Shown here: one piece after another, positions 2,459 to 33,316 of the stretch
Position numbering within the stretch: the first letter of the stretch is position 1
How the letters are laid out: each line of letters begins with the position of its first letter
DNA from: a virus
Reading direction: 5' to 3' (one strand)
Length of the DNA stretch: 34,821 nt
IMG/VR virus record: IMGVR_UViG_3300030044_000055
Span: 1-34,821 of that record
The notes under the pieces: model-generated
Told to the model about the DNA's origin: nothing
The model's database searches: none
What the model saw: the letters and a program-made list of their open reading frames with translations, nothing else
Program-made: the position numbers and the translations under genes

Positions 2459-2467
2459 CCAATCTTA
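2459..2467 (+). promoter_or_regulatory. CCAATCTTA element upstream of endolysin (putative late promoter)
   Basis: The sequence CCAATCTTA lies 32 nt before the endolysin ATG. It matches an element found upstream of several structural genes in this window (15024, 20876, 26179, 26468, 32765 and others). It also overlaps the start region of the divergent gene ending at 2455. Its role as a promoter is inferred from recurrence and position. Confidence 0.55.
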
Positions 2468-2499
2468 TGATAGAATCTATTAGAAGTAAAGAGGTATTT

Positions 2500-3078
2500 A
2501 TGGACTTGTGGAAGAGCTTGCTTGAGTTGGTATTGGGGCTTTTGACCAAAAAAGAGGCAGTGGTCAGTATTCCTATTGGAGAGCCAAAAGAGCAGCCTAA
2601 GCCTGAGGAAGCGAAACCCGAAGAAGCCAAACCAGCGACCATTGACTGGACAGATGGTACTCAAAAAGTTTCAAAGTATTTTACGGTCCACGATATGATT
2701 TATCTTCCAACCTGGAAACGTATGGCCAATGAAGCTGACGGACTAAATGAGGAAGTTAAAGCTAATCTCATCGAGCTTGGTAAAAAGATGGATACGGTTA
2801 GGGAATATTTTGACAAGCCGATAAATACACATGTTACCTATCGACCACTTGAGTACAATAAGGCTATTGGGGGAGCACTTCACTCAGCTCATTCTGAGGG
2901 GAAGGCAATGGACTGGGACCTTATGGGGATGACCTGTGATGAAGTAAGGGATATCTTGGTCAAAGAAAAACTATTGGATACTTGGGCTATGCGATGTGAG
3001 GATAAGCCTGCTAGTAACTGGGTTCATTTAGATTATCGAGAGCTTAAGCCGGATGGGCACAGATTTTTTATTCCTTAA
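2500..3078 (+). CDS. Endolysin, M15-family peptidoglycan peptidase
   Basis: Predicted zinc D,D-type peptidase that cuts peptidoglycan cross-links or stem peptides for lysis. The M15_3-like zinc site is visible: SAHSEGKAMD (H131, D138) and WVHLD (H176), in a 192-aa protein of the usual size. The N-terminus has a short hydrophobic stretch (LWKSLLELVLGLL, residues 3-15) followed by a repetitive P/E/K linker (PKPEEAKPEEAKP), so it may be membrane-anchored or exported through a signal-anchor. The ATG at 2500 is chosen because AAGAGG lies 6-7 nt upstream. Upstream in-frame starts at 2419 (TTG) and 2467 (ATG) overlap the promoter element. It is the only plus-strand gene in the left arm and has its own late-type element. 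No holin is evident next to it. Confidence 0.85.
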   Translation: MDLWKSLLELVLGLLTKKEAVVSIPIGEPKEQPKPEEAKPEEAKPATIDWTDGTQKVSKYFTVHDMIYLPTWKRMANEADGLNEEVKANLIELGKKMDTVREYFDKPINTHVTYRPLEYNKAIGGALHSAHSEGKAMDWDLMGMTCDEVRDILVKEKLLDTWAMRCEDKPASNWVHLDYRELKPDGHRFFIP

Positions 3079-3079
3079 C

Positions 3080-3403
3080 TCATTCTTCCTTAATTTTCTC
3101 AAGGGCTTTATCTACTTCCAGACGAGCATCAATTCCGCTACCATCAAGAAGGCCGTAGCTTGGCAGTCCACTATATATTTTCTCTAATACTTCAAGTGCC
3201 AAATAAAGCCTATACTTATGCATATCCCACAGTTTAAAGACTTCGTTACGGTCTGAGTGTAGGATACGGTTAATTCTCTTCTCTTCCTCAAGTTCCGTTT
3301 TTAGGTCCTCTATGTTCTTAGATAATTCGTTCCATTCGCATTGTTGGCAATTAGAGCCAAACTCAACAGAATGACCACAATCTCCCATACTATAAAGGCT
3401 CAT
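3080..3403 (-). CDS. Hypothetical protein, N-terminal Cys/His motif plus coiled coil (107 aa)
   Basis: No named family. Residues about 9-22 contain CGHSVEFGSNCQQC, a probable zinc site (C, H, C, C). Residues about 30-52 form a coiled coil (NIEDLKTELEEEKRINRIL), followed by a helical C-terminal region. The ATG overlaps the upstream stop codon as ATGA, so translation is coupled to the zinc-ribbon gene at 3400-3585. Its stop codon is two bases from the end of the convergent endolysin gene, with no terminator between them. Confidence 0.6.
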   Translation of the reverse strand: MSLYSMGDCGHSVEFGSNCQQCEWNELSKNIEDLKTELEEEKRINRILHSDRNEVFKLWDMHKYRLYLALEVLEKIYSGLPSYGLLDGSGIDARLEVDKALEKIKEE

Positions 3404-3585
3404 TCGTCTTCCCTCGCATCTCGACCAAAATCTTCAACTTTAGCTCTAGGGGCACCACAGTTTACGCAGGTGTCCGTCTTGTCTGAAAACTCATTTCCCT
3501 TACAGTAAGGGCAGCAACTGTAGGCGTTTAGCCAGGCAGTCATTTGCGACATGTTTAGGATTGTTCTTTCAGGCTTTTTATTCAA
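3400..3585 (-). CDS. Small zinc-ribbon protein (61 aa), TTG start
   Basis: Two CxxC pairs, CPYC and CVNC, separated by about 13 residues (CPYCKGNEFSDKTDTCVNC) form a classical zinc ribbon, so nucleic-acid or protein binding is likely; the partner is unknown. The TTG start at 3585 is preferred because GGGAG lies 6 nt upstream, whereas the internal ATG at 3552 has only a poor site. The start lies directly after the macrodomain gene stop codon, and the 3' end overlaps the next gene by four bases. Confidence 0.6.
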   Translation of the reverse strand: MNKKPERTILNMSQMTAWLNAYSCCPYCKGNEFSDKTDTCVNCGAPRAKVEDFGRDAREDE

Positions 3586-4029
3586 CTAGAACTCCCACAC
3601 GGTAAATTCTTGTTCTGGATATGACTCCAGAACCTCAAGTGTCAAATTCCAGTCCACGCCAAATAAGCCACTGTTGATTTTGCACATATGGATTGGCTTA
3701 TTATCCGTATTTTGCCAGATCAAATCTCCAATAGCGTCGGCTGTGGCATCCAAGATTTCTGGGACTGAATCTACCTTACTACCAAAGTTAGTCGAGGTAA
3801 AAAGACATCCAATAGTATGATCTCCGGTATCCAAAAGAAGGCATGACCCAAGAATGTCCCCACCTTCGTTACAAATTCTATTGTAGAACTTGTATGCGTA
3901 TGGGTATTTTTGGGCAAATTGTTTGGCAATACCTGAACCCCAGACTCCTTGGCAGTTACAGGCATGACAGATAATGGAACCCTTAGGGGCATCAAAAAGG
4001 GAACCCTTGACGATAGTTACGTTGCTCAT
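3586..4029 (-). CDS. Macrodomain protein, ADP-ribose binding or hydrolysing
   Basis: A single compact macrodomain of 147 aa. The ADP-ribose-binding signature HACNCQGVWGSGIAKQF (22-38) resembles Poa1p/TARG1-type macrodomains, and a second loop INSGLFGVDW (118-127) matches the phosphate-binding region. Family members hydrolyse ADP-ribose 1''-phosphate, O-acetyl-ADP-ribose, or ADP-ribose attached to protein or nucleic acid; which one applies here is not decided by sequence. Start and stop codons overlap those of neighbours (TAATG with the upstream gene). It is the last gene of the five-gene NAD/ADP-ribose set, which supports a role in removing or recycling ADP-ribose. Confidence 0.88.
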   Translation of the reverse strand: MSNVTIVKGSLFDAPKGSIICHACNCQGVWGSGIAKQFAQKYPYAYKFYNRICNEGGDILGSCLLLDTGDHTIGCLFTSTNFGSKVDSVPEILDATADAIGDLIWQNTDNKPIHMCKINSGLFGVDWNLTLEVLESYPEQEFTVWEF

Positions 4030-4502
4030 TACTCTAGTTCTCCTATAAGATTTTCAATTAGCTCTTCAATACTGTCAACTTGAGGCACTCCATATTTTTC
4101 GCAAACTATGTCAACGTTACCTTTACGCCAAAAGCCTTCTGGACAGCATACAATTAATTTTCCAGTTTCAGCAAATAGGCCGAGTTCCAGCAGCGAAATA
4201 GGGGACTTAGTACTAGGATCAAAATACATCAGGATCCAATCGGCATACTCTAGCGCGTCAAGTTCCCATTCCACCTGTTGCTTGAATTGAGCATTCTCTA
4301 TTTTTTGCTCCCACGAAGAATCCCAATCGTCCCTTCGGGGATTCAAAATGAGGACGTTCTCTTCGGATAGTTCGTTAGTTACACGAGTCTGCCAATCAAC
4401 GGCTTTACCCATTTCAATGCTTCCGGCTAGAAATACAGATGGAGTTCGATAGGCCTTAAAGACTTTTTTAGGGAATGCCTGTGGAGACTTAATGACCTTC
4501 AT
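4029..4502 (-). CDS. Nucleoside 2-deoxyribosyltransferase-like protein
   Basis: A Rossmann-like protein of 157 aa related to the nucleoside 2-deoxyribosyltransferase-like family (Pfam Nuc_deoxyri_tr2 type). Visible motifs are FLAGSIEMG (24-32), NPRRDDWD (54-61), the helix QVEWELDALEYADWILMYF (76-94) and SPISLLELGLFA (100-111), whose glutamate E106 is the candidate nucleophile. Relatives transfer or hydrolyse N-glycosidic bonds of (deoxy)nucleosides. Placed between NADAR and macrodomain genes, an N-ribosyl or ADP-ribosyl hydrolase role is plausible, but this is inference. The start is three bases from the NADAR stop; GGAG lies 12 nt upstream, so coupling probably helps. Confidence 0.8.
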   Translation of the reverse strand: MKVIKSPQAFPKKVFKAYRTPSVFLAGSIEMGKAVDWQTRVTNELSEENVLILNPRRDDWDSSWEQKIENAQFKQQVEWELDALEYADWILMYFDPSTKSPISLLELGLFAETGKLIVCCPEGFWRKGNVDIVCEKYGVPQVDSIEELIENLIGELE

Positions 4503-4503
4503 G

Positions 4504-4986
4504 TTAGCTTTTAGCTCCAGATCTCAAGTCTTCCCTGACTTTCATCAAAACTTCACCAAGCCAATTTTTGCCACGCCACTTTGATTTATCGAATCGGTCA
4601 GGATCTCTTTCAGACAGCCCGATACCCCAAATACGGTCTACAGGGCTGGCTTCAACAATTTCCTCATTATGGGTAGAAAGAATAAATTCCTTCAAATAAG
4701 GAGTTGCGAACTTAGCCATATTGGCCTTATAAACGAACCCTCTAGACACAGCATCCCAAGACTCTGCGTCAAAGTTCTTAACCATCCTACCGGTTGCTTT
4801 TTGGGTAGAAGGGTCATGAGCTTTCATGATCTTGGCTAAGGCGTCCGTATCATTGAAATAAGTGGCCTTCATAGCCATCATATACTGTTCTGCACAGTTA
4901 TACTTTACTCCATCGATCTCAAATACGCTCCTATACCATTGGCTAAAGGGTCCACCGTAGAAAAAATGAAACTTTTCATCACCCAT
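4504..4986 (-). CDS. NADAR-domain protein (YbiA/RibX superfamily)
   Basis: A 160-aa single-domain NADAR protein. The family hallmarks are present: FYGGPFSQWY (9-18), YNCAEQYMMAMKA (29-41), ASPVDRIWGIG (113-123) and GKNWLGEVLM (139-148). Characterised members cleave N-glycosidic bonds, including removal of ADP-ribose from guanine in DarT-type toxin systems, and riboflavin intermediates in YbiA. The ATG at 4986 is preceded by AAGGAG with 7 nt spacing and overlaps the Nampt-like stop codon by 8 bp. A longer in-frame start at 5049 lies deep inside that gene. Next to a NAD+-rebuilding pair it may release ADP-ribose from modified nucleic acid; this is inferred. Confidence 0.9.
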   Translation of the reverse strand: MGDEKFHFFYGGPFSQWYRSVFEIDGVKYNCAEQYMMAMKATYFNDTDALAKIMKAHDPSTQKATGRMVKNFDAESWDAVSRGFVYKANMAKFATPYLKEFILSTHNEEIVEASPVDRIWGIGLSERDPDRFDKSKWRGKNWLGEVLMKVREDLRSGAKS

Positions 4987-6451
4987 TTGCGTTCTCCTTA
5001 AGTTTTGCCCTGACTTGAGCGAAACTTTCTTCTCGGACCAGCTTACCATCTTTGAAGATGGGTTGCAAGAGATCCGTTGAAAGCTCCGAATTTAGGTCGT
5101 GGCCATCGCTAAAGGTAATCTTTCCGCCACTTTTGTAGACATGAACCTTACCTTTTTGAGATTTTTTGATTCCATCATCAGTCTTTGGGTCTTTGAAGAT
5201 CTGCTTTTCAACGCCATTTATGACACATAAAGTGCTCTTGAGAGCAAATCCGAAGGTATCACGAGTATTGTACTGATAGGTATACGACCCAATCCCAAAA
5301 ACCACGTTAATGGAAGCGAATCCTTTTTCAGCCAACTTAGTTACAATATCTTTAGCCCTAAAAAGGGTGATGGCGTCTCCATAGATCAGGCCAATGTGAG
5401 AATCGAGGACTTTATATCCTTTTCCGGTTTCAGTGCCTCCGAAGATATCCCAAAGGGCTTCGACTGCGCCCTTATACTCCAAACTACCCTTAGGTGCATC
5501 TGGATCACCACAAACGATCTTAACTGGGTCACCGGAATCAGGTCGAATGACAACACGGCCATCACGAGCCATGATTTTGTCTTTAAGGGCTGGAATAACC
5601 CTACCGATAACATCCCAGAAATCATACCCATCGGAAACAATGGACACGAAGCCCGAAGGATGTACTACGGACATCATTTGAGTCAGGTATTCCAAGTCAT
5701 TACCGTAGCTACATTGGATAGAGTGCTCGGTGGCTGGAATCGATGTCCCAACCAACTCTTTTTCAACATTGGCTCCATAGTAGTATTCTGCGGCCTGAAT
5801 GGCGGGAATCGTGTCCGTACCAACGAAGGAGAGGAGGTGCCCCATCCCACTCGACATTGCAGACTGAAGGGAAGACATACCGCGAAAGCTAAAATCATGC
5901 CCTTGGAAGGGAACGAAATCAGTATTTCCAACCGTTTTCAGAGAAGCTTCATCCAAGATCTTCCGATATTCTCCAGCAATAGTTGCTGAAGTCGAAGGCT
6001 GCCAAAGCTGGCAGGAAGCCAAGCTCTCAACAAAATTGGTAAGCCAAAAGAAGCGCTTATCGGTGTTTTGAATGGTCATCATTGGAACCCGCAAAGGTAC
6101 CAAAGTCCCTTCTGGGACAGATTTAATCAAAAGAGGAAGGTACCCAAGATCATGCAGCTCTTCGATATGCTTTGTCTCTGGATTAGCAACCCCTAGAGTA
6201 TTCTTGATAATTCTGGAATATTCTTTAACTACGTCGGCCTTAGCTTGGTGGAAAAAATTCAGATTGAAGAAATCGATCAAAAATTCCTTGATGAAAGCTT
6301 GCTGACCAAAGGCTACCACTTCGTCAACGCCTTTCATACGGCTAGCACGAGGGGTCCAAGTTGAAAACACCACTTCGGTACCAACCGGGTACATATTTTT
6401 ATGACTAACCTTATAGAAATCGGCCAACAACATTGCGTTCAGATTTTTCAT
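4979..6451 (-). CDS. Nampt-like NAD+ synthesis enzyme, candidate NARP1 Namat
   Basis: Nicotinamide phosphoribosyltransferase-like enzyme of 490 aa, close to the length of characterised Nampt. Active-site segments are conserved: HDFSFRGMSS (R190), SFVGTDT (D213), TEHS (H243) and VIRPDSGDP (R303, D305). The N-terminus ADFYKVSHKNMYP is also typical. Alone it would be called Nampt. Because it follows a PRPP-synthetase-like gene and no NMN adenylyltransferase is present, the better candidate is Namat of the phage NARP1 pathway, which joins nicotinamide to ADP-ribose pyrophosphate to give NAD+ directly. The start at 6451 has an AGGA-like site and clears the upstream gene by 10 bp; an earlier in-frame start at 6490 overlaps it. 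Confidence 0.9.
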   Translation of the reverse strand: MKNLNAMLLADFYKVSHKNMYPVGTEVVFSTWTPRASRMKGVDEVVAFGQQAFIKEFLIDFFNLNFFHQAKADVVKEYSRIIKNTLGVANPETKHIEELHDLGYLPLLIKSVPEGTLVPLRVPMMTIQNTDKRFFWLTNFVESLASCQLWQPSTSATIAGEYRKILDEASLKTVGNTDFVPFQGHDFSFRGMSSLQSAMSSGMGHLLSFVGTDTIPAIQAAEYYYGANVEKELVGTSIPATEHSIQCSYGNDLEYLTQMMSVVHPSGFVSIVSDGYDFWDVIGRVIPALKDKIMARDGRVVIRPDSGDPVKIVCGDPDAPKGSLEYKGAVEALWDIFGGTETGKGYKVLDSHIGLIYGDAITLFRAKDIVTKLAEKGFASINVVFGIGSYTYQYNTRDTFGFALKSTLCVINGVEKQIFKDPKTDDGIKKSQKGKVHVYKSGGKITFSDGHDLNSELSTDLLQPIFKDGKLVREESFAQVRAKLKENANG

Positions 6452-6461
6452 ATATAATATC

Positions 6462-7229
6462 CTATATTTGAATTGTGCCTTGACGTTCACTTACTTCACC
6501 AGCGTGAGTGAAAATCCGTTGGATACCCGATTCGAAGAGAGTTCTAGTTCCCTTCGAAAAGATCCCATGAGTCACGAAGAGCACCACGCTCTTTGCACCC
6601 GCAGCCAGTAGGTCTTTGGCCAAAAGTTTAAATGTCATACCGCCATCACAAATATCGTCCACTATGAGAACAGTTCCGATAGGCGTTCCAATCAGTTTAT
6701 AGCTTGTAATGTTGCCGGTGAGCTGATCTCGAACCTTCTCACCATAGATATGGCCACCCTTAAGCAGATTGATATATTTCTCGAAAGCGCCAGCATCTGG
6801 ATAACAGAAAAGGTTTGCTTCTACAAGCTTTGCGACCTCATAGATCTTATCTACAGGGTAAATAGCTTTAAAATTATAGATAAGCTCCTCGGCCACAGAA
6901 CTATGTGGGTCCATGCAGATAACTTCCTCGAACCCAAGATGGTTGAGAAGTTCAGCGAAGGCATAAAGAGCAAATGTAGCGGTATTGCTAGGCTCCTTAT
7001 CTTGGCGACCATAAGGAAGATAGGGAAGTCTGAGTACTGTCCTAAAATCGTAATGATCTAGGAGCAACTTAAGTTGAGCAAGTTGAAGGAATTCACCTTC
7101 ATTGCTAAACTCCCAAGTTACATGAGCAAAATTGGTTGTAGTGAGGATTTCTTCGGGGAGCTTCCAGACCTGAGAGGTATTGTCTGAAAACATAGTGGTG
7201 GGAACGGGAAGACCGTTTAAGTATAGCAT
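6462..7229 (-). CDS. PRPP-synthetase-like kinase, candidate NARP1 Adps
   Basis: A short (255 aa, versus about 315 for bacterial Prs) ribose-phosphate pyrophosphokinase homologue. Motifs: YLPYGRQDKE (70-79), MDPHS (106-110), PDAGAFEKY (144-152), flexible-loop region EKVRDQLTGN (164-173) and the PRPP-binding loop VLIVDDICDGGMTF (187-200). In phages with NARP1, this type of protein (Adps) pyrophosphorylates ADP-ribose instead of ribose 5-phosphate, supplying the substrate for Namat. The adjacency to the Nampt-like gene supports that reading, but a genuine PRPP synthetase feeding Nampt is the alternative. Ribosome-binding site AAGGAG lies 6-8 nt before the ATG. An extended -10 promoter lies 75 nt upstream. 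Confidence 0.9.
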   Translation of the reverse strand: MLYLNGLPVPTTMFSDNTSQVWKLPEEILTTTNFAHVTWEFSNEGEFLQLAQLKLLLDHYDFRTVLRLPYLPYGRQDKEPSNTATFALYAFAELLNHLGFEEVICMDPHSSVAEELIYNFKAIYPVDKIYEVAKLVEANLFCYPDAGAFEKYINLLKGGHIYGEKVRDQLTGNITSYKLIGTPIGTVLIVDDICDGGMTFKLLAKDLLAAGAKSVVLFVTHGIFSKGTRTLFESGIQRIFTHAGEVSERQGTIQI

Positions 7230-7304
7230 GGGGGCTCCTTATCTAGGTCTAAGCCGTATCCACGTCAATCAAGGATACTAACTCAAACCTGCCTTACAAC
7301 TAAG

Positions 7305-7331
7305 ATTATATCATGTCGAATAGAATAGCAA
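7305..7331 (-). promoter_or_regulatory. Extended -10 promoter upstream of the NAD+ gene set
   Basis: On the minus strand TGATATAAT (extended -10, TGnTATAAT) occupies about 7313-7305, with a weak TTGCTA 15 nt further upstream. It lies 75 nt before the PRPP-synthetase-like start and could drive the NAD/ADP-ribose genes separately from the 72-aa gene upstream. The same bases also read TAATCTTA, a partial match to the late element. Confidence 0.45.
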
Positions 7332-7338
7332 GAACAAA

Positions 7339-7557
7339 TTAAATCTCTACACCATTATCAAGCAAAATAGCGTGAAGCTCATCCCTAGTGGATTGCAAAG
7401 CTTCCCTAACTTGATCTGGCAATTCTTCATACTTGAGCTTAGAACGCAAGTAGTTATCGAGATCATGGAGGGCGGATAGGTAGTTTTGGCCATTTGAGGC
7501 TGTTTCGAATTCATGGCGTTCTTCGGGGAGATTGAATTCCAAGATAGCTTTAGGCAT
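7339..7557 (-). CDS. Conserved phage hypothetical protein (72 aa)
   Basis: A small protein beginning MPKAILEFNLPEERHEFE, continuing as two helices (SALHDLDNYLRSKLKYEE and VREALQSTRDELHAIL). This pattern, an I/LEFxLPE strand followed by a helix with an L-x-D-x-L-R core, is familiar from small conserved phage proteins of unknown function. The ATG at 7557 is preceded by AAGGA with about 6 nt spacing. An upstream in-frame start at 7605 would place 16 extra codons inside a structured RNA leader and has no ribosome-binding site. It is the first gene downstream of the structured leader and its promoter. Confidence 0.75.
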   Translation of the reverse strand: MPKAILEFNLPEERHEFETASNGQNYLSALHDLDNYLRSKLKYEELPDQVREALQSTRDELHAILLDNGVEI

Positions 7558-7572
7558 AAGATTCCTTTTAAA

Positions 7573-7690
7573 ATGTAGCGGGCCGCTAAAACACTTACCC
7601 GCCAAGAATCCTTGGCAGTAATAGCGCTCTGGAATCGGTTTCGAACCCTATCCTTGGATGGGGTGTTACCCTGTAGTACACCCGCTACAT
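7573..7690 (-). ncRNA. Structured 5' leader RNA, possible riboswitch or cis-regulatory RNA
   Basis: A perfect 10-bp inverted repeat (ATGTAGCGGG at 7573-7582, CCCGCTACAT at 7681-7690) encloses 98 nt on the minus strand. Inside are GCCAAG-GATT-CTTGGC (extendable to 8 bp), GGGTGT...ACACCC, and GGTT-CGA-AACC. The 3' arm of the closing stem can instead pair with the adjacent TAGCG as a short hairpin just before the ribosome-binding site, so two mutually exclusive folds are possible. The predicted transcription start of the promoter at 7696-7724 coincides with the first base of the closing stem. I do not recognise an Rfam class. A normal tRNA cloverleaf cannot be built. Confidence 0.55.
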
Positions 7691-7695
7691 CTAAG

Positions 7696-7724
7696 ACTAT
7701 ATGGTAAGACGGCTAGGAAGTAAA
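7696..7724 (-). promoter_or_regulatory. Sigma70-like promoter for the structured leader and left-arm operon
   Basis: On the minus strand TTTACT (7724-7719), a 17-bp spacer and TATAGT (7701-7696) form a good host-type promoter. The expected start is about 7690, exactly at the closing stem of the structured leader. It lies directly after the stop codon of the GIY-YIG gene. Confidence 0.6.
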
Positions 7725-7727
7725 GAA

Positions 7728-8420: not shown

Positions 8421-8431
8421 AATATGGTTAT

Positions 8432-8460
8432 ATCATAGAACTATTTACGTTTTTTGTCAA
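8432..8460 (-). promoter_or_regulatory. Sigma70 promoter for the GIY-YIG gene
   Basis: On the minus strand TTGACA (8460-8455), exactly 17 bp, then TATGAT (8437-8432). The -10 box is 11 nt from the ATG at 8420, so the 5' untranslated region would be only about 2-5 nt. The -35 lies within the 3' end of the protease gene. Confidence 0.65.
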
Positions 8461-9865
8461 CAAGTAGAATTAAGGATCTCTCTAGATCTAAAGACTTACT
8501 TAGGGCCAGAGCGCGGCCAACAGCCTTGATCTCTCCAAGAGCAAGATGAGGCATCCTAGCAGACATAAACTTCTCAAAAGCTTCTCTTTGAGGCCAACGC
8601 TCGTACTCGTCCTTAGAGCGCTTATTCCAATCAGTCTTTTTCTTGGTGCCCTGAAAATTGTGATCTTCAGCTCCAGTCTTTGCTTGCTTTGAAGAAAGCC
8701 CTTCAACCTGATAAGCTGCGCCATTAACTAATGAGGAAGGAGCTGCATTATAACTTCCAGCCTCTACGGCCTTCTGAAGAGGTTTTTGTTTCGATTTATC
8801 TTTTTTGCTAAGCCCGAGTCCGCTTGAGAGATTGGACATAGCTTGACTAAAAGATGTCCCGCCAGATGTACCTCCATTTTGCATAGATTGAGCATTAGCA
8901 GCATTTGGTTCAGCTGGAGGAGCGGCCATGTTAGCGTCTTTTTTAAGATCTTCTCCCTTAGCCATGGGTTCACTTTTGTTAGCAAAAGCTAAGTGCCTTT
9001 TAGCGCTATCAAAATGGGTAGCACCTGGAACCCCCTTACCAGCTTCAGCGTTAGAATAGTGAATATTCCCAGCGTCTCTGTGGTCTTGAGTAGACCAACC
9101 CTTATAGTCGTTAGGCTTGAGATGGCTCATTACATCTTTGCCGCTTTTAGTCTGCCCAATAGGAATGCCCGGCATCTTAGCTACTGAACTAATGGGGCCG
9201 AATTTTGGAGTATGTTTGAAATCGATTTCTTTTTTAAGCAAGAACTGATCGTAAAGTCTAGAGCCTTCGTCCGATTTAAATAATGTAACCGCTTCTTGTT
9301 CGGATCGAAATAGGGATTCAAACTCATCTTTTACCGCAGAATCCATGGCCTCATCGTATATTTCGGCTATACACATATGGTTTGCTGGGGTAGAAGTCAA
9401 CGTGACCTTACGAGCAATAGACCTGCCAATCAAAATCTTATTGACCCTGGATCCTGGTAGCTCTGAGCCCTCAACTGAGAAACCTAAAATGGCCTGTAGG
9501 TCTGGACGGTCTTTGCTGTATTTAAACTTACCGGCACATTCCCTGGCGCTATCGCAATAATCATCTAGGAGTTCGGCCAAAATATAAACAAATGGGATTT
9601 TAGTTTTGTTCCAGAAGTATGTTTCGCTGGGGGTGGTGCAGTCGCTGGAACTAAAGAGCTTCTTAGCCTTAAGGATTTTTCCGACAATTTGGGCCGGAAG
9701 CTTAATGGTAATAAGCTTACCCTCAGCGTCTTTGCCTTGATCGTGCTCAAAGTTCAAAATTCCACTGCGAGCAAGAGAGGTTATGTCTAGCCCACGAATA
9801 TCTACGATTTCACTAGCAGTATCAATAGATTGGACTGAAGCGCAACCATGAATAAACGTCGACAT
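8441..9865 (-). CDS. Prohead protease with C-terminal extension (474 aa)
   Basis: Predicted capsid maturation serine protease. The N-terminal 170 residues show the HK97/S78-like pattern: GILNFEHDQG (candidate H41), a strand-rich middle, and AILGFSVEGSE (candidate S130) followed by RKVTLTSTPAN. Beyond this is a long extension: a module IGQTKSGKDV...DHRDAGNIHY...HFDSAKRHLA (236-292), a low-complexity A/S/G/Q linker, then KAVEAGSYNAAPSSLVNG (365-382), which is nearly identical to the N-terminus of the major capsid protein, and a basic C-terminal domain. The ATG at 9865 follows an AGAGG site and a CCAATCTTA element; a longer in-frame TTG at 9925 lies inside the HNH gene. It is encoded opposite to scaffold and capsid genes, unlike the usual order. 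Confidence 0.8.
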   Translation of the reverse strand: MSTFIHGCASVQSIDTASEIVDIRGLDITSLARSGILNFEHDQGKDAEGKLITIKLPAQIVGKILKAKKLFSSSDCTTPSETYFWNKTKIPFVYILAELLDDYCDSARECAGKFKYSKDRPDLQAILGFSVEGSELPGSRVNKILIGRSIARKVTLTSTPANHMCIAEIYDEAMDSAVKDEFESLFRSEQEAVTLFKSDEGSRLYDQFLLKKEIDFKHTPKFGPISSVAKMPGIPIGQTKSGKDVMSHLKPNDYKGWSTQDHRDAGNIHYSNAEAGKGVPGATHFDSAKRHLAFANKSEPMAKGEDLKKDANMAAPPAEPNAANAQSMQNGGTSGGTSFSQAMSNLSSGLGLSKKDKSKQKPLQKAVEAGSYNAAPSSLVNGAAYQVEGLSSKQAKTGAEDHNFQGTKKKTDWNKRSKDEYERWPQREAFEKFMSARMPHLALGEIKAVGRALALSKSLDLERSLILLVDKKRK

Positions 9866-9875
9866 AAAAATACCT

Positions 9876-10634
9876 CTAATAGATAAGATTGGAGAGGAGT
9901 TTGTCGCTTTTAATGATGTTCTCAATATGCCACATAGGCTGCAGGTTAGTATAGTGATTTGCCCTTAAGAATTGTTCTCTATCTGTCAGATCGATCCTGG
10001 AAAGTGGGAATATGTGATCTAGACTCCATTGCCCCTCCTTATTTCCGTAGTTATCCCAGGACATACCTGATTGCCATAGGGATTCGATATATTTACAAAA
10101 ATCTTCTATACTGCAGCCTAAATCTCTCACAGCGGAACCGGATTTAGGCTCTTTTATTCCCGTTTTTACGTACTGGGCCATCATATTAGTTATGCGAGTT
10201 CTCAGGCTGCATTTAAGTTTAAATGCGGGATCTACCCTCTTTCTTTCCTTCGCATAACGGACTTGCTCTTTACTATAGCATTTTTTACAAATTGCGGCAA
10301 ATCCAGGCTTAGGGCCTTCTACCAGGCGTAACTTTCTTTTCTTAAAACTTTTTAGGTCCTTGATTTCCTTACATTTCGTACAAATTCTTATTCCCAGTTC
10401 GGCATGTTTTCTTTTTTCTTCAATTTTCTTTTTGGTATCGCTTTTACGTTTTTCCTCACGAATTAAACGGGCTTCATCCGCGATAAGCATGAGTTTCCAT
10501 TTTTCGTCTCTTTTTTCTTGCTTAATTTTCTTTTCGCACTCCTTGCAATGTTCTCTACGGCCATCCATAGCCTTTTTGCGTTTAGAGAACTTGATTAAGT
10601 CTTTGTTTTCTTTACATTTAGTACAGGTCTTCAT
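9876..10634 (-). CDS. HNH homing endonuclease with N-terminal zinc finger
   Basis: A 252-aa HNH nuclease. It begins MKTCTKCKENKDLIKFSK, a CxxC...CxxC treble-clef zinc finger shared with two other HNH genes here, and a second CTKCKEIKD finger follows at about 85. A long basic, coiled region lies between. The C-terminal domain contains WSLDHIFPLS with the catalytic DH, then NHYTNLQPMW and ENIIKSDK, the HNH core. The ATG at 10634 is chosen over an upstream TTG at 10658 because it aligns with the start of the gene at 13748; there is no Shine-Dalgarno sequence. The 3' end comes 10 bp before the protease start and contains the protease promoter element. Confidence 0.88.
   Translation of the reverse strand: MKTCTKCKENKDLIKFSKRKKAMDGRREHCKECEKKIKQEKRDEKWKLMLIADEARLIREEKRKSDTKKKIEEKRKHAELGIRICTKCKEIKDLKSFKKRKLRLVEGPKPGFAAICKKCYSKEQVRYAKERKRVDPAFKLKCSLRTRITNMMAQYVKTGIKEPKSGSAVRDLGCSIEDFCKYIESLWQSGMSWDNYGNKEGQWSLDHIFPLSRIDLTDREQFLRANHYTNLQPMWHIENIIKSDKLLSNLIY
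9884..9892 (-). promoter_or_regulatory. CCAATCTTA element upstream of prohead protease
   Basis: On the minus strand CCAATCTTA ends 18 nt before the protease ATG, with an AGAGG ribosome-binding site between them. It overlaps the last codons of the HNH gene, so that gene's 3' end carries the promoter of the capsid gene it borders. Confidence 0.55.
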
Positions 10635-10639
10635 ATAGA

Positions 10640-10648
10640 TAAGATTGT
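10640..10648 (-). promoter_or_regulatory. ACAATCTTA element directly before HNH gene
   Basis: On the minus strand ACAATCTTA followed by TCTAT and then ATG. The 5-nt gap, and the absence of a Shine-Dalgarno sequence, predict a leaderless message. The block AATCTTATCTATATGAAG is identical in front of the HNH gene at 13748. Confidence 0.5.
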
Positions 10649-10742: not shown

Positions 10743-10796
10743 CGAATCTTACCTTTGAAACCAATTGGTTAAGCCGCATTTATCGATAGAAGCGGC
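10743..10796 (+). promoter_or_regulatory. Leader of the capsid operon: CGAATCTTA element and hairpin
   Basis: CGAATCTTA (10743-10751), a variant of the recurrent element, lies 85 nt before the first capsid-operon gene. A hairpin follows: GCCGC (10773-10777) pairs with GCGGC (10792-10796) around a loop containing the palindrome TATCGATA. This may stabilise the 5' end of an abundant message. The rest of the 10649-10836 gap is AT-rich with no gene visible. Confidence 0.4.
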
Positions 10797-12245: not shown

Positions 12246-13643
12246 ATGCTTGAACAACTTCAGTCCCTTATGAAAGCGCTTGAGGCGGGCAGTTACAATG
12301 CCGCACCAAGCACGTTGGTGCAAGGTGCCGCTTACCAGATCGAGGATCTCGCTCCTGTGATGGTGAACGTGACCGCTGCCGAAGAAACTATCAAACTGCA
12401 GAAAATGCTCGACGTTCGTAATACGAAGAGCAACCTCTACCAGTATAACCGTAAATTGTCGGTTGGCCGTTTCGGCGGTTCAGCTGCTTACGAAGGTATG
12501 CTGGGAGCCAAGAAAACCGGTCAAGCTGCTCGCTTGGTCGTGCCTATGGCTTACTACGTTGATACGCGCGAACATTCGCTGGTTGCGAATGCCGTTGAGA
12601 CGTTTGACAAGGTTACCGCTGAAGAGCGCCAGGCCCAGGATGCGGCCCTCAACCTCGCTCAAGATATCGAGTTCGACCTGTTCGCAGGTAACTCTGACTT
12701 CTCAAACAACGGAGTCTTCGATGGCAATCCTGCCCTAGTTCCTGCTCTTGCCAACATGCGCGGGTTTGACCTTCAGGTTCGCGCTTCGGATTATGAACGT
12801 AACGGACAAGATCTCATGTTCGCTTCGTACGGTTCGAGCGCAACGGTTGTGTTCTCTGCTGGTGGCGGCACTCTGACGCAATCCCTCATTGAAGACATCT
12901 CGGTTCGTTCTGCCCTTAACATGGGTCGTGCGGACAAGCTGATGCTGGACCCTTCGTCCCTCTCGTCCTACAACAAGATCAGCCAGGCTAAAGAACGTAT
13001 CGTTCTCGCTGGTTCTCCTCAGGAAGCTACCGGTTCGCATCTGCGTACCCAATGGACTTCGAGCGGTGCGATTACGTTGGAGATGAGTCAATATCTTCGT
13101 AAGCAGATCAGCCCTGTCAATCAGCAGATCTTTGGCGCTCCTGTAGCTCCAACGCTCTCCGGTGCTGACACTGGCGCGGCTGGTTCCTTGATCTCCGCTG
13201 GCACGTATAGCTACGTTGTCGCTGCTGTGAACCAGGTCGGTGAAGGCCCTACGTCGAATCCTCCTACGGCTGTCGTTGTGGCAGCTACGGGCGACAAGGT
13301 GACTTTGACGATCGGTGCAGTTGCCGGTGCTCTCTACTACCGCGTTTACCGTACTGGTAATGCTGGTAGCCCTGGTTCGGAACTGTTCATTGGTAACATC
13401 GCGGCCACCCCATCGGGCGCTTCGTTCACCGATCTCGGTAACCTTAGCCCAGGCGGTCTCACTGGATTCTTGATTCAGCGTGACTCAGCCCATATGGGCG
13501 AGCTTTCGGGATTCAAGAAACTCCAGCTCGGCATCTCGCAGCTCTCTATCAACAACGCGTTCTATCGTTGGACTACGCTTGCTGTTGAAAGTCCTCGTAA
13601 AAACGCAATCGTCGGTAATCTGCAAGGACAGGTCTATACCTAA
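12246..13643 (+). CDS. Major capsid protein with Ig/FN3-like insertion
   Basis: The 465-aa protein has major-capsid features: N-terminal arm KALEAGSYNAAPSTLVQG (10-27), then a core (VGRFGGSAAYEGMLGAKK, REHSLVANAVETFDKV, AQDIEFDLFAGN) and a C-terminal strand segment (NAFYRWTTLAVESPRKNAI). Residues about 295-400 form an inserted beta-sandwich (AGTYSYVVAAVNQVGEGP ... ALYYRVYRTG), with FN3/Ig-like character, probably displayed on the capsid surface. Codon use is rich in C-ending codons compared with neighbours, as expected for the most abundant protein. An AGGAG site precedes the ATG and a strong terminator follows the stop. The N-terminal arm is nearly repeated in the protease C-terminal region. 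Confidence 0.88.
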   Translation: MLEQLQSLMKALEAGSYNAAPSTLVQGAAYQIEDLAPVMVNVTAAEETIKLQKMLDVRNTKSNLYQYNRKLSVGRFGGSAAYEGMLGAKKTGQAARLVVPMAYYVDTREHSLVANAVETFDKVTAEERQAQDAALNLAQDIEFDLFAGNSDFSNNGVFDGNPALVPALANMRGFDLQVRASDYERNGQDLMFASYGSSATVVFSAGGGTLTQSLIEDISVRSALNMGRADKLMLDPSSLSSYNKISQAKERIVLAGSPQEATGSHLRTQWTSSGAITLEMSQYLRKQISPVNQQIFGAPVAPTLSGADTGAAGSLISAGTYSYVVAAVNQVGEGPTSNPPTAVVVAATGDKVTLTIGAVAGALYYRVYRTGNAGSPGSELFIGNIAATPSGASFTDLGNLSPGGLTGFLIQRDSAHMGELSGFKKLQLGISQLSINNAFYRWTTLAVESPRKNAIVGNLQGQVYT

Positions 13644-13711: not shown

Positions 13712-13742
13712 TTGACCGATGCACATAGGTGAGATAATCTTA
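13712..13742 (+). promoter_or_regulatory. Promoter region of HNH gene: TTGACC...GATAAT plus ATAATCTTA
   Basis: TTGACC (13712-13717), a short 15-bp spacer and GATAAT (13733-13738) resemble a host promoter. The overlapping ATAATCTTA (13734-13742) matches the phage element and is 5 nt from the ATG. No Shine-Dalgarno sequence is present, so a leaderless message is likely. Confidence 0.45.
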
Positions 13743-15023: not shown

Positions 15024-15032
15024 CCAATCTTA
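15024..15032 (+). promoter_or_regulatory. CCAATCTTA element upstream of 15063 gene
   Basis: CCAATCTTA followed by ACTCTATAGAATTC, 30 nt before the ATG, with AGGGG between as a ribosome-binding site. It marks the start of the next plus-strand structural operon after the minus-strand gene. Confidence 0.6.
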
Positions 15033-16474: not shown

Positions 16475-16485
16475 AGTGATATAAT
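16457..16485 (+). promoter_or_regulatory. Sigma70 promoter giving a leaderless start at 16491
   Basis: TTGATT (16457-16462), exactly 17 bp, then TATAAT (16480-16485), a near-consensus host promoter. The -10 box is 5 nt from the ATG, so transcription would start at or within a base or two of the start codon; there is no Shine-Dalgarno sequence. Confidence 0.65.
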
Positions 16486-20875: not shown

Positions 20876-20884
20876 CCAATCTTA
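20876..20884 (+). promoter_or_regulatory. CCAATCTTA element upstream of 20916 gene
   Basis: CCAATCTTA followed by ACTGATATAGTC, 31 nt before the ATG, with AAGGAG as ribosome-binding site in between. Arrangement is the same as at 15024. Confidence 0.6.
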
Positions 20885-20915
20885 ACTGATATAGTCTCTA
20901 AGGAGAATTAATTTT

Positions 20916-24624: not shown

Positions 24625-24627
24625 TCT

Positions 24628-25596: not shown

Positions 25597-25605
25597 TTGT
25601 GATAT
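25577..25605 (+). promoter_or_regulatory. Weak sigma70-like promoter before HNH gene
   Basis: TTGCCT (25577-25582), 17 bp, TGATAT (25600-25605), placing a start 2-3 nt before the ATG at 25615. There is no Shine-Dalgarno sequence. The -10 is weak, so confidence is low. Confidence 0.35.
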
Positions 25606-25614
25606 ATCCTATAT

Positions 25615-26115: not shown

Positions 26116-26178
26116 CTAAAAGCTGACTAAAAGATTTCGGCCTCTAACTATAAGTACCATATTTTGTTAAAATCATCC

Positions 26179-26187
26179 CCAATCTTA
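26179..26187 (+). promoter_or_regulatory. CCAATCTTA element 6 nt before ATG at 26194
   Basis: CCAATCTTA, then CCCTAG, then ATG. No Shine-Dalgarno sequence exists between element and start, so a leaderless message is predicted. The preceding 26116-26178 shows only AT-rich sequence. Confidence 0.6.
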
Positions 26188-26193
26188 CCCTAG

Positions 26194-26463: not shown

Positions 26464-26467
26464 TCGT

Positions 26468-26476
26468 CCAATCTTA
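26468..26476 (+). promoter_or_regulatory. CCAATCTTA element upstream of 26495 gene
   Basis: CCAATCTTA ends 18 nt before the ATG at 26495, with TTAGGAG between as ribosome-binding site. It is the second element within 300 bp, giving the two adjacent small genes separate starts. Confidence 0.6.
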
Positions 26477-26494
26477 TTGTTATTAGGAGTTCCC

Positions 26495-27112: not shown

Positions 27113-27115
27113 CCA

Positions 27116-27415
27116 ATGGCAAAGCCGACGAAACTCAGACAACTTGAACAGCCCATGGTGGAGTCTAAGCCCAAGGAGATGACCTTGGCTGAATCTCGTG
27201 CCTATAGGGCTTCTCTTCATAGGCCTCAAGCCCCGTCGCTTACTGAAGAACAGAAACGTGAAGAGTTTCGCAAGTTTTGGGCCAGCAATAAAAAGAAATA
27301 TGGCGAAGCTAAGAATCTTGAAAAAGCTCTTTGGTTGCATCTCAAGACTATCAAAATGGATTCGCCAGAAGACTTTAAGAGGGGTTGCGACCATTTCGGA
27401 TTGAAGGTTAAATGA
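27116..27415 (+). CDS. Basic hypothetical protein (99 aa)
   Basis: A lysine/arginine-rich protein with a helical middle (EEQKREEFRKFWASNKKKYG) and a C-terminal helix (PEDFKRGCDHFGLKVK). It may be a small chaperone or DNA-associated phage protein, but no family is recognised. An AGGA site precedes the ATG, three bases after the previous stop. The stop overlaps the start of the GIY-YIG gene (ATGA). Confidence 0.6.
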   Translation: MAKPTKLRQLEQPMVESKPKEMTLAESRAYRASLHRPQAPSLTEEQKREEFRKFWASNKKKYGEAKNLEKALWLHLKTIKMDSPEDFKRGCDHFGLKVK

Positions 27416-28323
27416 AAGCTTCTCTAGGCTCCATCTACCTCATTACTAACCTCATCAACGGCAAATTGTACGTTGGTCAGACTGTTTATACGGTGGAGTT
27501 GAGGTTTTCTAAGCATGTTAGGACTGCGAATCTTGGAAGTGAATTAGCGCTCTGTAGGGCTATTCGTAAATATGGCGCAGAAAACTTTAAGATCGAGACC
27601 ATTGAAGTAACTTTTGAAACCGAACTAGACAATAGGGAAATCTTTTGGATTAAAGAGCTTAACAGTCTGTGTTTTGGCGGCGGCCTTGGATATAACATGA
27701 CTACGGGTGGTCACGGTGTAAGGGGGCGTATTCAATCTGAAGAAGAGAAGAAAAAACGAGTCCTATCATGCACCGGAAAAACCCACACCGCAGAAACTAA
27801 AGCCCTAATGAGCCAAAAAATGACTGGCCGAGAAATTACTTGGGCCGACAAGGTTTCTGAGGGTATGAAGAAGAGGCTCGCTGACAATCCAGACCATATG
27901 GCGAAGGTCGTCGAACAGGCTTTGGCGGCTGCCATCAAGAATAAAAAGCCTGTAGAGGCGTTGATGAACGGCGTATGGGTTGAATTTGCGGGAACTGAAG
28001 ATCTAGCTCAAGCCATTGGAGCAAAGGCTCCAAATATTACTAACGTTATTCGTGGTAAGGCCGACACTATCAAGGGATTTTCAATCCGCTCTAAGGATCC
28101 TGCAATTCAAGCTCTGTGTGAAAAGAATAGACTTGAGAGAAAATCTAAGCCTGGATCTCATAAGAGAGTTATCTGCTTAGAAACTAAAGAGATTTTTGAT
28201 TCGCGTAGGGCCGTCGCTGCAATCTTTAATGTAAGTATGAGAGCTGTAGACGATTCTGTAAACAAGAACTACGCGTGCCGTACAAAAGAACACGGCAAAT
28301 TACATTTTGCTGAAATGATTTAA
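27412..28323 (+). CDS. GIY-YIG homing endonuclease
   Basis: A 303-aa GIY-YIG nuclease: GSIYLITNLINGKLYVGQT at the N-terminus, with the arginine in ELRFSKH and the catalytic glutamate in DNREIFWIKEL. NUMOD3-like repeats follow (THTAETKALMSQKMTGRE), and two C-terminal HTH-type repeats (EFAGTEDLAQAIGAKAPNIT, DSRRAVAAIFNVSMRAVDDS) that resemble IENR1/NUMOD1 modules. It is inserted just before the tail sheath gene, in a coupled overlap (ATGA) with the upstream gene, so it relies on read-through and not on its own promoter. Confidence 0.9.
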   Translation: MKASLGSIYLITNLINGKLYVGQTVYTVELRFSKHVRTANLGSELALCRAIRKYGAENFKIETIEVTFETELDNREIFWIKELNSLCFGGGLGYNMTTGGHGVRGRIQSEEEKKKRVLSCTGKTHTAETKALMSQKMTGREITWADKVSEGMKKRLADNPDHMAKVVEQALAAAIKNKKPVEALMNGVWVEFAGTEDLAQAIGAKAPNITNVIRGKADTIKGFSIRSKDPAIQALCEKNRLERKSKPGSHKRVICLETKEIFDSRRAVAAIFNVSMRAVDDSVNKNYACRTKEHGKLHFAEMI

Positions 28324-28333
28324 GGGGAAATTT

Positions 28334-31267: not shown

Positions 31268-31290
31268 TAAAGAAATACTAGGAGAATTTT

Positions 31291-31815
31291 ATGGCAGCAG
31301 GTAGTCCGGGTAATGTTGGGCCTAACACTCCAACTCAAATTGCAGCATCGTCTAAAGTTATCACTGGTGGTCGTTCAGTGGTGTCTATCAACTCTGGGAA
31401 CGGGCCTGTAGTTATTGGCATCTTCGATTCTTGTACTATTAGCGAAAGTATCTCTTCGGAAGATATTCATATTCTCGGAGCCTACGCGGCTCAAGAAATT
31501 ACGCTTGTGAGCTACAACAGTGTTTCAGTTTCTTGTAGTGGATTTCGCGTATATGGTCACGGCGTAAAACTACTCGGAGCTTTTCCGACGCTGAACAATT
31601 TGTTGTCGCTCGGACCGGTAGTCATTACTGTAGGAGATAGGGAGTCACCGACTGGCCCTCCTATGGCAACCATAGTAAACTGTTTGCCGGATACCAACAG
31701 CAACAGCTTTACGAGTCGTGCAACGAGTAAGATAAATTTGACCTATAAGGGCACTTCCGTGAGTGATGAGAGTTCTGTAGGGGACGGAGAGAGCGGAGCA
31801 ACCACTCTCCCTTGA
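31291..31815 (+). CDS. Tail tube protein
   Basis: A 174-aa protein immediately downstream of the sheath gene, the usual position of the tail tube. It is mostly beta-strand (VVSINSGNGPVVIGIFDSCT, AQEITLVSYNSVSVSCSGFR, GPVVITVGDRES), and its size fits tube proteins (about 140-190 aa). It assembles as hexamer rings inside the sheath. The AGGAG site precedes the ATG and a strong terminator follows, indicating a high-level transcript. No family match is claimed, so position carries much of the assignment. Confidence 0.75.
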   Translation: MAAGSPGNVGPNTPTQIAASSKVITGGRSVVSINSGNGPVVIGIFDSCTISESISSEDIHILGAYAAQEITLVSYNSVSVSCSGFRVYGHGVKLLGAFPTLNNLLSLGPVVITVGDRESPTGPPMATIVNCLPDTNSNSFTSRATSKINLTYKGTSVSDESSVGDGESGATTLP

Positions 31816-31839
31816 TTCGTAAAAGTCAACTAATTATTA

Positions 31840-31873
31840 AAACCCACATATTTAACTATATGTGGGTTTTTTT
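31840..31873 (+). terminator. Rho-independent terminator after tail tube gene
   Basis: AAACCCACATA (31840-31850) pairs with TATGTGGGTTT (31859-31869), an 11-bp stem with an 8-nt loop, followed by a T-rich tract to 31873. Confidence 0.9.
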
Positions 31874-31874
31874 A

Positions 31875-31904
31875 TTGACACGGCAATATGTTCTTTGCTA
31901 TGGT
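31875..31904 (+). promoter_or_regulatory. Sigma70 promoter for GIY-YIG gene
   Basis: TTGACA (31875-31880), 18 bp, TATGGT (31899-31904), directly after the tail-tube terminator. It would give a leader of roughly 15-20 nt with GGGAG before the ATG at 31930. Confidence 0.55.
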
Positions 31905-31929
31905 TAAATATGGGAGCTGATTATCTGTT

Positions 31930-32757
31930 ATGATCGTTTATAGAATTATTAATAAAATTAACGGTAAGGAATATATAGGTCAGACCATAAAAACCTTAAA
32001 AAGAAGGTGGACCGAACATTGCTGCGCCGGGTCTATCCTTTATAAGGCTATAAAGAAATACGGAAAAGAAAATTTCACTCAAAGTATTATCCATACATGT
32101 GATAACATAGAAGATTTGAATTTGGCCGAAGAATACTTTATAGAATATTATAATACGATGAGTCCAAATGGATACAACCTCCATACGGGTGGAAACAATC
32201 ATATGGTTTCGGATGAAACTCGTAAAAAAATGTCTGAGGCGGGTAAAGGAAAAACTTGGACAGAAGAACGGAAGAAAAAACACTCCGAATCTATAAGCGG
32301 AGAAAAGCACCCAAATTTTGGAAAAACCGCTACGAATGAAACGAGAGATAAGATATCCAAGGCTGGGACGGGTAGAAAGCACGCAGAGACATCTAAAATA
32401 AAAATAGGTGAATCAAAGAAAGGAGTTCCGCGCTCAGAAGAGGTAAGGCGTAACATATCTGTTTCTAGCACAGGAAAGACGGTTTCAGAAGAAGTAAAAC
32501 AAAAAATCTCTAAAGCTACAAAGGGTGAAAACAATCCCAATTTTGGGAATAGGATGTCAAAGCAGAGTCGCGAAAAAATATCGGAAGCGAATAGAGGAGA
32601 ACCCTTTATTTGTTTAAACAATGGTAAAACCTACTATACCCTGCAAAGCGCTGGAGACGAATTGGATATAAACATAACTGGAATAAGTAGGACCTTACGG
32701 GGAAAACAACGCGGTACAAATGGGTACAGGTTTAAGTATCTGCGAGAAGCCCCCTAA
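31930..32757 (+). CDS. GIY-YIG homing endonuclease with many NUMOD3 repeats
   Basis: A 275-aa nuclease. GIY-YIG domain at 1-90 (IVYRIINKINGKEYIGQT, then TLKRRWTEH with the arginine, and LNLAEEYFIEYYNT with the glutamate). Then at least five NUMOD3-type repeats (ETRKKMSEAGKGKTW, HPNFGKTATNETRDKISKAG, EEVRRNISVSSTGK, NPNFGNRMSKQSREKISEA). The C-terminal segment (FICLNNGKTYYTLQSAGDEL) resembles a NUMOD1/HTH module. It sits between tail tube and tail-fibre genes with its own terminator and promoter. Confidence 0.92.
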   Translation: MIVYRIINKINGKEYIGQTIKTLKRRWTEHCCAGSILYKAIKKYGKENFTQSIIHTCDNIEDLNLAEEYFIEYYNTMSPNGYNLHTGGNNHMVSDETRKKMSEAGKGKTWTEERKKKHSESISGEKHPNFGKTATNETRDKISKAGTGRKHAETSKIKIGESKKGVPRSEEVRRNISVSSTGKTVSEEVKQKISKATKGENNPNFGNRMSKQSREKISEANRGEPFICLNNGKTYYTLQSAGDELDINITGISRTLRGKQRGTNGYRFKYLREAP

Positions 32758-32764
32758 TCCCTTT

Positions 32765-32773
32765 CCAATCTTA
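32765..32773 (+). promoter_or_regulatory. CCAATCTTA element 5 nt before ATG at 32779
   Basis: CCAATCTTA, then ACCTC, then ATG. No Shine-Dalgarno sequence can be seen; a leaderless message is predicted. Confidence 0.6.
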
Positions 32774-32778
32774 ACCTC

Positions 32779-33300
32779 ATGTCCACCCCCTTACTCCCCC
32801 CAAGCCAGGCCGAAGCCAATGAATCGTCTCAAGCAGCCTCAGACTTAGCGGTCTCGACGGCTAATACTGCGTTTATACAGGCTATTATTGCTCTAATCGA
32901 TACTGCTACCCCTCTTGGCCTCTATCAGGTGCAGCCACCGATCCCCACTAATGCGGACTATAACGCTATCTCTGCTTACTTTACGGCCTTGGGCTATACC
33001 GTTTCTATCTCCTTTCCTCCATCTCCATTCTTCGGCTTTGACAATGGCTGCATTCCAGCAGGCTTCTCCCAGGCCCTAGGCAACAATTTCCAATTCTGGG
33101 GTCCATCATCTCCACCTCCAGCTTACCCATCCCCTCAATGGGCCTCTTGGCAGGTCTATGTTCAACGTCATCACCCTAGGATGACCCTTTCTTGGGCCTT
33201 TGGCACCGCTGTTGTGGAAAGCTTCCTTCTGCTCGAAACTGGCGACCTATTCTTGTTGGAGAATGGTATTGATGGCATTTTGCTCGAATCCAGCCCTTAA
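32779..33300 (+). CDS. Putative tail or baseplate-associated protein (173 aa)
   Basis: No family recognised. The N-terminal part is helical (ASDLAVSTANTAFIQAIIAL), the middle is rich in P, S, F and Y, and the C-terminus (ESFLLLETGDLFLLENGIDG, ending LESSP) contains LLLE-G repeats that I have seen at the ends of phage tail proteins. It precedes the tail-fibre gene and lies behind a leaderless CCAATCTTA promoter. Confidence 0.6.
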   Translation: MSTPLLPPSQAEANESSQAASDLAVSTANTAFIQAIIALIDTATPLGLYQVQPPIPTNADYNAISAYFTALGYTVSISFPPSPFFGFDNGCIPAGFSQALGNNFQFWGPSSPPPAYPSPQWASWQVYVQRHHPRMTLSWAFGTAVVESFLLLETGDLFLLENGIDGILLESSP

Positions 33301-33307
33301 GTTTACT

Positions 33308-33316
33308 GCAATCTTA
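33308..33316 (+). promoter_or_regulatory. GCAATCTTA element upstream of tail fibre gene
   Basis: GCAATCTTACCC, 42 nt before the tail-fibre ATG, with AGAGGA as ribosome-binding site nearer the start. It is a one-base variant of the element. Confidence 0.5.

Follow-up and report, generated by a model that had tools for sequence, protein, structure and literature searches.

A -10-type element, CAATCTT, is very probably the late-gene switch of phages related to Myxococcus phage Mx1 and is probably read by their shortened sigma factor

The stretch of viral DNA considered here, positions 1 to 34,821 of IMG/VR record IMGVR_UViG_3300030044_000055 (the window hereafter, 34,821 nucleotides in all), carries the same short word ahead of many of its genes, and the question raised by this locus is what the word does and which protein reads it. 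An earlier reading, made from the sequence alone, had proposed that CCAATCTTA is a phage-specific promoter standing before capsid, tail and HNH genes. A promoter of this kind is still the best reading, because the element is oriented, mostly intergenic, conserved in the lineage, held at fixed distances from start codons and free of a -35 partner. In the form CAATCTTA it very probably switches on the late genes of a large, little-studied group made up of relatives of Myxococcus phage Mx1, and sequence comparison indicates that its core, CAATCTT, is probably read by a shortened sigma factor encoded by the lineage.

The window is a phage fragment that is 100% identical over its full length to bases 15506-50326 (reversed) of G001, a phage contig of 166,169 bases. 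The major capsid protein encoded there shares 47% identity with its counterpart in Mx1, the sole close cultured relative found, and a megablast search of window positions 10000-34821 against phages gave no match. Phages of the lineage, which include the contractile-tailed Mx1, are about 150-177 kb long. The genomes G002 (162 kb), G006 (114 kb), G003 (61 kb) and Mx1 were used for comparison; gene calls were mechanical (longest open reading frames, ORFs) and the comparison phages were picked by hand.

All twelve positions given for the element in the sequence-only reading were checked, and the sequence claimed for each is present. CCAATCTTA occurs exactly at 2459, 9884 (-), 15024, 20876, 26179, 26468 and 32765, and variants of it are found at 10640 (-) (ACAATCTTA), at 33308 (GCAATCTTA), at 10743 (CGAATCTTA) and at both 13734 and 7301 (-) (ATAATCTTA). 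The 9-mer was rejected as the unit, its first base being unconserved; the informative core is CAATCTT(A). There are nine copies of CAATCTTA in the window against 1.75 expected, a count reached in 0 of 100 dinucleotide shuffles, and all nine sit before an ORF on the same strand, which bears out the claimed orientation toward genes. When all 8-mers were scored with no preselection, CAATCTTA showed the strongest upstream enrichment in G001 (15 of 21 copies upstream, 1.06 expected, P ~10^-12), and it likewise ranks first in G002 (15/21), G006 (13/15) and G003 (6/10). Intergenic DNA makes up 8.3% of G001, 7.7% of G002 and 4.8% of G006 and holds 15 of 21, 16 of 21 and 14 of 15 copies, respectively. 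In these three genomes the element is thus more frequent before genes than inside them, the test that the sequence-only reading had set for itself.

At 7302 an element is present, but it is TGATATAATC, which belongs to a second promoter-like class and is not the weaker variant of CAATCTTA for which it had been taken; its grouping with the other copies was rejected, the sequence being TGATATAAT. The copy at 10743 is also there, but its role as a promoter is doubtful, because in GAATCTTA the pyrimidine otherwise conserved before AATCTT is missing and the GAATCTT class shows no distance peak (see below). Positions 10743 and 10819, before the capsid operon, form a degenerate AATCTTA...TAAGATT pair. 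Facing copies of CAATCTTA about 30 bp apart, a near-perfect inverted repeat between two genes, are found at L047:12312-12342 (G004) and L041:18939-18969 (G006), and each predicted leader there would hold the reverse complement of the other copy.

The spacing of the word was measured from the first A of AATCTT to the ATG of any ORF 60 or more codons long, pooled over about 70 non-redundant sources. For CAATCTT the distances are bimodal, with a peak at 11-15 (mode 12), almost none at 16-22 and a spread from 23 upward. No such peak is seen for GAATCTT or CATTCTT, which differ by one base, or for the reversed word; control words are flat, and GTG and TTG starts give no peak comparable to that of ATG. 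TAATCTT has a smaller peak at 12, which indicates that T is accepted before AATCTT. Leadered sites have a purine at position 12 in 76% of cases (A 52%, G 24%) and C in 4%, though no start codon lies there. The simplest reading is that transcription would start at position 12 from the first A, so that the first group of distances would be leaderless, the second would leave room for a Shine-Dalgarno (SD) site, and short leaders fitting neither arrangement would be avoided.

Counting back from a start at position 12, AATCTT occupies -12 to -7, where sigma-70 promoters have their -10 hexamer, and in this register the word keeps A-11, T-10 and T-7 of the canonical -10 element. A -35 element was sought and rejected: in the alignment of leadered sites no column from -45 to -7 rises above 0.2 bit, in agreement with the claim that no good -35 accompanies most copies. 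The base after CAATCTT depends on the clade, being A in close relatives and mixed elsewhere. The word's closeness to start codons might also mean that it is a signal for translation or RNA processing within the 5' untranslated region. This is improbable, as leadered genes have a separate SD site at variable distance in addition to the word, the word is not complementary to the anti-SD sequence, and a transcription start better accounts for a distance peak followed by an empty zone. Sites predicted to be leaderless, roughly a third of the late-type sites, have an AUG start without an SD site, and the promoter word itself fills the position of the ribosome-binding site. In the window, the copies at 10640 (-), 13734, 26179 and 32765, with an ATG 12-13 nt from the first A, probably give leaderless transcripts, to judge from this geometry. 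The prohead protease of Mx1 is annotated from 13002; its true start is probably the ATG at 13023. Further transcription starts predicted at the A of an ATG in Mx1 are at 121405, 36563 and 75289.

A candidate reader is found outside the window. Gene 2071-3078 of Mx1, whose product is WNM70309.1, is annotated as a putative sigma factor, and a single orthologue, with 34-39% identity to the Mx1 protein, is present in each of G001 (at 64712-65749), G002, G003 and G006. A profile search found at least 110 IMG/VR contigs that encode relatives, and also Mx1, the only match among 50,697 phage records; most members are 335-400 residues long. A profile built from 61 of them aligns with RpoD/SigA from region 2 through region 4.1 (best E 5.6e-9), PHROG 351 gives a match at E 4e-7, and Pfam Sigma70_r2 matches the Mx1 protein at E 9e-4, which is below the curated cut-off. 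The structure predicted for the sigma has a mean predicted local distance difference test score (pLDDT) of 86.8, and its top 50 PDB entries are all sigma or RNA polymerase holoenzyme structures. The fold matches sigma chains with Z about 12; Foldseek TM-scores reach only a modest 0.3-0.4, probably owing to a different placement of domains. Region 4.2, the reader of the -35 element, is absent: all 61 aligned sigmas stop 0-17 residues past the conserved region-4.1-like block, and the last residue of the modelled protein aligns near residue 566 of 613 in Escherichia coli sigma-70. With homology in region 2 and region 4.2 missing, the protein is by its sequence a divergent, truncated member of the sigma-70 family and not a non-member. 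Some other sigma-like factors, gp55 for example, are also without region 4.2. Its absence across the lineage fits the missing -35.

No beta-type RNA polymerase (PF00562) was found in 10 records, with a positive control of 14/14, and no T7-type enzyme (PF00940) in 9 records, with a working T7 control; the host core enzyme is therefore the likely partner. A phage-encoded RNA polymerase as the reader is accordingly very improbable, and the exact -10 register of AATCTT speaks against it as well, even though phage RNA polymerases typically use short, rigid promoter words, such as AACA-N6-TA/G in the late promoters of AR9, where the reader is a phage multisubunit RNA polymerase (PMC5312081). The late promoters of AR9 and phiKZ resemble the present element in being short words fixed to the start site of phage late genes, whereas no phage multisubunit polymerase was found in the lineage genomes searched.

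We consider it likely that CAATCTT(A) is a -10-type late promoter element read by the truncated phage sigma on the host core, with starts about 12 nt on that are partly leaderless. The phage would make its truncated sigma-70-family factor, which would bind host core RNA polymerase and recognise AATCTT at -12 to -7 by way of the retained A-11, T-10 and T-7. The DNA would be opened without -35 contact because the factor ends before region 4.2, and the first transcribed base would be a purine some 12 nt from the first A of AATCTT. At roughly a third of the sites this purine would be the A of AUG, giving a leaderless mRNA, and the rest would have a leader with an SD site. Of this scheme, the element with its position, conservation and spacing, and the sigma gene with its truncation, are seen directly in the sequences.

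The motif and the sigma occur together. In the 31 records that bear the sigma, CAATCTT-N6-ATG has 70 matches against 2 for the reversed control, whereas nine comparison phages from outside the lineage give 2 against 2; this absence of any excess outside, together with the lineage's own sigma-70-type factor, favours a phage-specific promoter. The sigmas were split by identity, not by a tree, into clade A, which goes with a second word, TGATATA, and clade B, which includes Mx1. CAATCTT ranks first among upstream 7-mers in clade B (31/105 copies, P ~10^-17.6), and TGATATA shows no upstream enrichment there (2/23 copies). CAATCTT persists in both clades whereas TGATATA is limited to clade A, so the sigma travels with CAATCTT rather than with TGATATA. 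Mx1 and the window phage share the sigma family, the motif and its spacing; Mx1 differs in its 55% G+C, in the base after CAATCTT, which is usually not A, and in having TGATATA only once in its genome.

In clade A, TGATATA is the strongest upstream word, with a peak at 15 nt before ATG. Relative to the same start, TG would then lie at -15/-14 and TATA at -12 to -9, in independent agreement on the start-site register. The class has no -35 and no conserved T-7, and for the latter reason it is not simply a canonical host element; it may still be an ordinary host extended -10, whose geometry it fits, though T-7 is unconserved. At window positions 20877-20893 one gene is preceded by a late-type element with a TGATATA element next to it, possibly as a dual promoter. 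CGCTATA(AG), the second most upstream-enriched 7-mer of clade B (Mx1, L109-L131), is possibly the clade B counterpart of TGATATA.

The strength of TGATATA in clade A, its lack of a -35 and its place before the sigma gene in many phages lend some support to another arrangement, in which CAATCTT would be read by host RNA polymerase altered by a different phage factor, and the truncated sigma would read TGATATA or serve another step. We regard this as rather unlikely: clade B has the sigma, yet TGATATA is unenriched there while CAATCTT stays first, and TGATATA could be explained by its TG and TATA positions as a host-read class. Several observations nevertheless weigh against the truncated sigma as the reader of CAATCTT. 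The association of the two comes from one lineage that was sampled by its sigma, and common descent alone could yield it, so that it is a co-occurrence and not proof. TGATATA in clade A is also leaderless and strongly enriched, without a conserved T-7, and the lineage sigma or a partner could read it instead. In Mx1 taken alone, CAATCTT ranks only sixth among upstream 7-mers. Finally, sigma-70 uses aromatic residues to capture A-11, and these are not evident in the alignment of the 61 phage sigmas.

With the truncated sigma as the probable reader of CAATCTT, the genes served suggest a circuit. In G001 the transcription units that carry late-type sites include terminase, portal, protease, tail, baseplate and lysis genes, and replication genes have hardly any such sites. 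The sigma gene of many clade-A phages stands 14-16 nt behind TGATATA and would, at that spacing, be leaderless. The sigma gene behind TGATATA and CAATCTT on virion genes together suggest a cascade in which a TGATATA-type promoter would make the sigma and the sigma would turn on the virion genes, with a timing that we infer.

The T4 late promoter motif is TATAAATA, a -10-type element without a -35, and the sequence-only reading was correct in stating that the present element, CAATCTT, is not this box. T4 late transcription (gp55, gp33, gp45) depends on a phage sigma-like factor with a domain 2 related to sigma-70, acting on the host core (PMC2988020). The lineage system would have in common with it a phage sigma-like factor, a -10-type element without a -35, late genes and, as inferred here, the host core; it differs in its motif and in a sigma that aligns to RpoD from region 2 to 4.1. 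By analogy the lineage system may work like gp55-dependent late transcription, with no demonstrated kinship: Pfam, PHROGs and tblastn of phages gave no gp55-type match, gp55 being too divergent for these searches to exclude kinship.

Leaderless late sites are strongly associated with homing endonucleases. Genes like the HNH, GIY-YIG and EDxHD-like endonucleases of the window follow 22 of 56 leaderless late sites against 4 of 107 leadered ones (Fisher P = 1.2e-8), and the leaderless late module precedes 22 of 66 endonuclease-like genes against 29 of 2040 others; the endonuclease counts are lower bounds because the seeds came from the window. The GIY-YIG genes were confirmed by Pfam, whereas the HNH and EDxHD labels come from sequence inspection, Pfam giving no match at E 0.001. 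Mx1 has two unannotated HNH-like genes, of 142 codons at L015:48198 (+) and of 122 codons at L015:18226 (-), and in both the start codon is exactly 12 nt away from the first A of AATCTT. The frequency of the word beside such genes could mean that it is the target of a homing endonuclease or of a phage DNA-binding protein, but this is hardly credible, as most copies lie before genes that are not endonucleases and are oriented, with fixed start-codon spacing.

Under the promoter reading we tentatively propose, as a possibility that we do not yet favour, that free-standing endonucleases bear a portable module of about 16 bp, a -10 element, five bases and ATG. The phage sigma would make them leaderless late genes, and insertion anywhere would be tolerated because read-through mRNAs without an endonuclease ribosome-binding site would leave them untranslated. 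T4 intron endonucleases such as I-TevI have their own late promoter and a ribosome-binding site hidden in a hairpin, and translation from read-through transcripts is poor (PMC2988022). In both cases a selfish endonuclease gene carries a late promoter of its own; I-TevI keeps its ribosome-binding site and hides it, whereas the lineage promoter ends at the ATG and no such site is seen. In ShiLan-type methylase insertions of mycobacteriophages, a leaderless 'hidden' HNH endonuclease without a recognisable ribosome-binding site has been proposed (PMC11855218). The HNH gene there is similar in that respect, but no promoter forms part of the proposal, and the start there is a GTG within another gene.

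Table 1. Candidate promoter elements in the window. Distances run from the first A of AATCTT for late-type elements and from the element for TGATATA.
Element	Position	Strand	Gene	Start codon (distance)	Remarks
Late-type CAATCTTA	2460..2467	+	Endolysin (phrog_894, E 1.2e-22)	ATG 2500 (39 nt)	SD present
Late-type CAATCTTA	9884..9891	-	Prohead protease	ATG 9865 (25 nt)	SD AGAGG
Late-type CAATCTTA	10640..10647	-	HNH-like endonuclease	ATG 10634 (12 nt)	Predicted leaderless
Degenerate copy GAATCTTA	10744..10751	+	First gene of major capsid operon	ATG 10837 (92 nt)	Doubtful
Late-type TAATCTTA	13735..13742	+	HNH-like endonuclease	ATG 13748 (12 nt)	Predicted leaderless
Late-type CAATCTTA	15025..15032	+	Virion-region gene	ATG 15063 (37 nt)	SD AGGGG; orthologue in Mx1 structural region
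Late-type CAATCTTA	20877..20884	+	Virion-region gene	ATG 20916 (38 nt)	SD AAGGAG; TGATATA element next at 20887
Late-type CAATCTTA	26180..26187	+		ATG 26194 (13 nt)	Predicted leaderless
Late-type CAATCTTA	26469..26476	+		ATG 26495 (25 nt)	SD AGGAG
Late-type CAATCTTA	32766..32773	+		ATG 32779 (12 nt)	Predicted leaderless; G002 equivalent with same geometry
Late-type CAATCTTA	33309..33316	+	Tail-fibre-like	ATG 33359 (49 nt)	SD GAGG
Second class TGATATAAT	7305..7313	-	Phosphoribosyltransferase-like / NAMPT genes		Promoter-like; the 7302 variant
Second class TGATATA	8429..8435	-	GIY-YIG endonuclease	ATG 8420 (15 nt)	Predicted leaderless
Second class TGATATA	16477..16483	+		ATG 16491 (14 nt)	Predicted leaderless
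Second class TGATATA	25600..25606	+	HNH-like endonuclease	ATG 25615 (15 nt)	Predicted leaderless

Other features of the window and its relatives are as follows. Four sigma-encoding contigs (L142, L143, L145 and L146) all lie in one Deltaproteobacteria metagenome-assembled genome from a bog (bog_1112), a weak hint at the host that agrees with Mx1. The adjoining NAMPT and phosphoribosyltransferase-like genes at 4979-7229 (-) suggest NAD salvage by the phage, and the Mx1 genome also holds NAMPT, together with NMN adenylyltransferase. A segment EAGSYNAAPS-LV-GAAYQ, common to the protease-type protein (8441-9865, -) and the major capsid protein (12246-13643, +), is possibly a maturation cleavage or scaffold motif.

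The open-licence literature searched held no earlier description of the CAATCTT motif or of the lineage sigma. The leaderless geometry, the sigma gene, the second promoter class and the link to homing endonucleases go beyond the sequence-only reading. Together they provide a testable late-transcription system, consisting of a motif, a candidate sigma and predicted starts exact to the base, for a large uncultured lineage with Mx1 as its cultured member. If true, this would be another natural case of late transcription without a -35 by a truncated sigma, here one that can be aligned to RpoD up to region 4.1, and the system would be useful for asking what minimum of a sigma factor is needed. It also suggests that phages of the lineage make systematic use of leaderless mRNA, and that selfish endonuclease genes exploit it.

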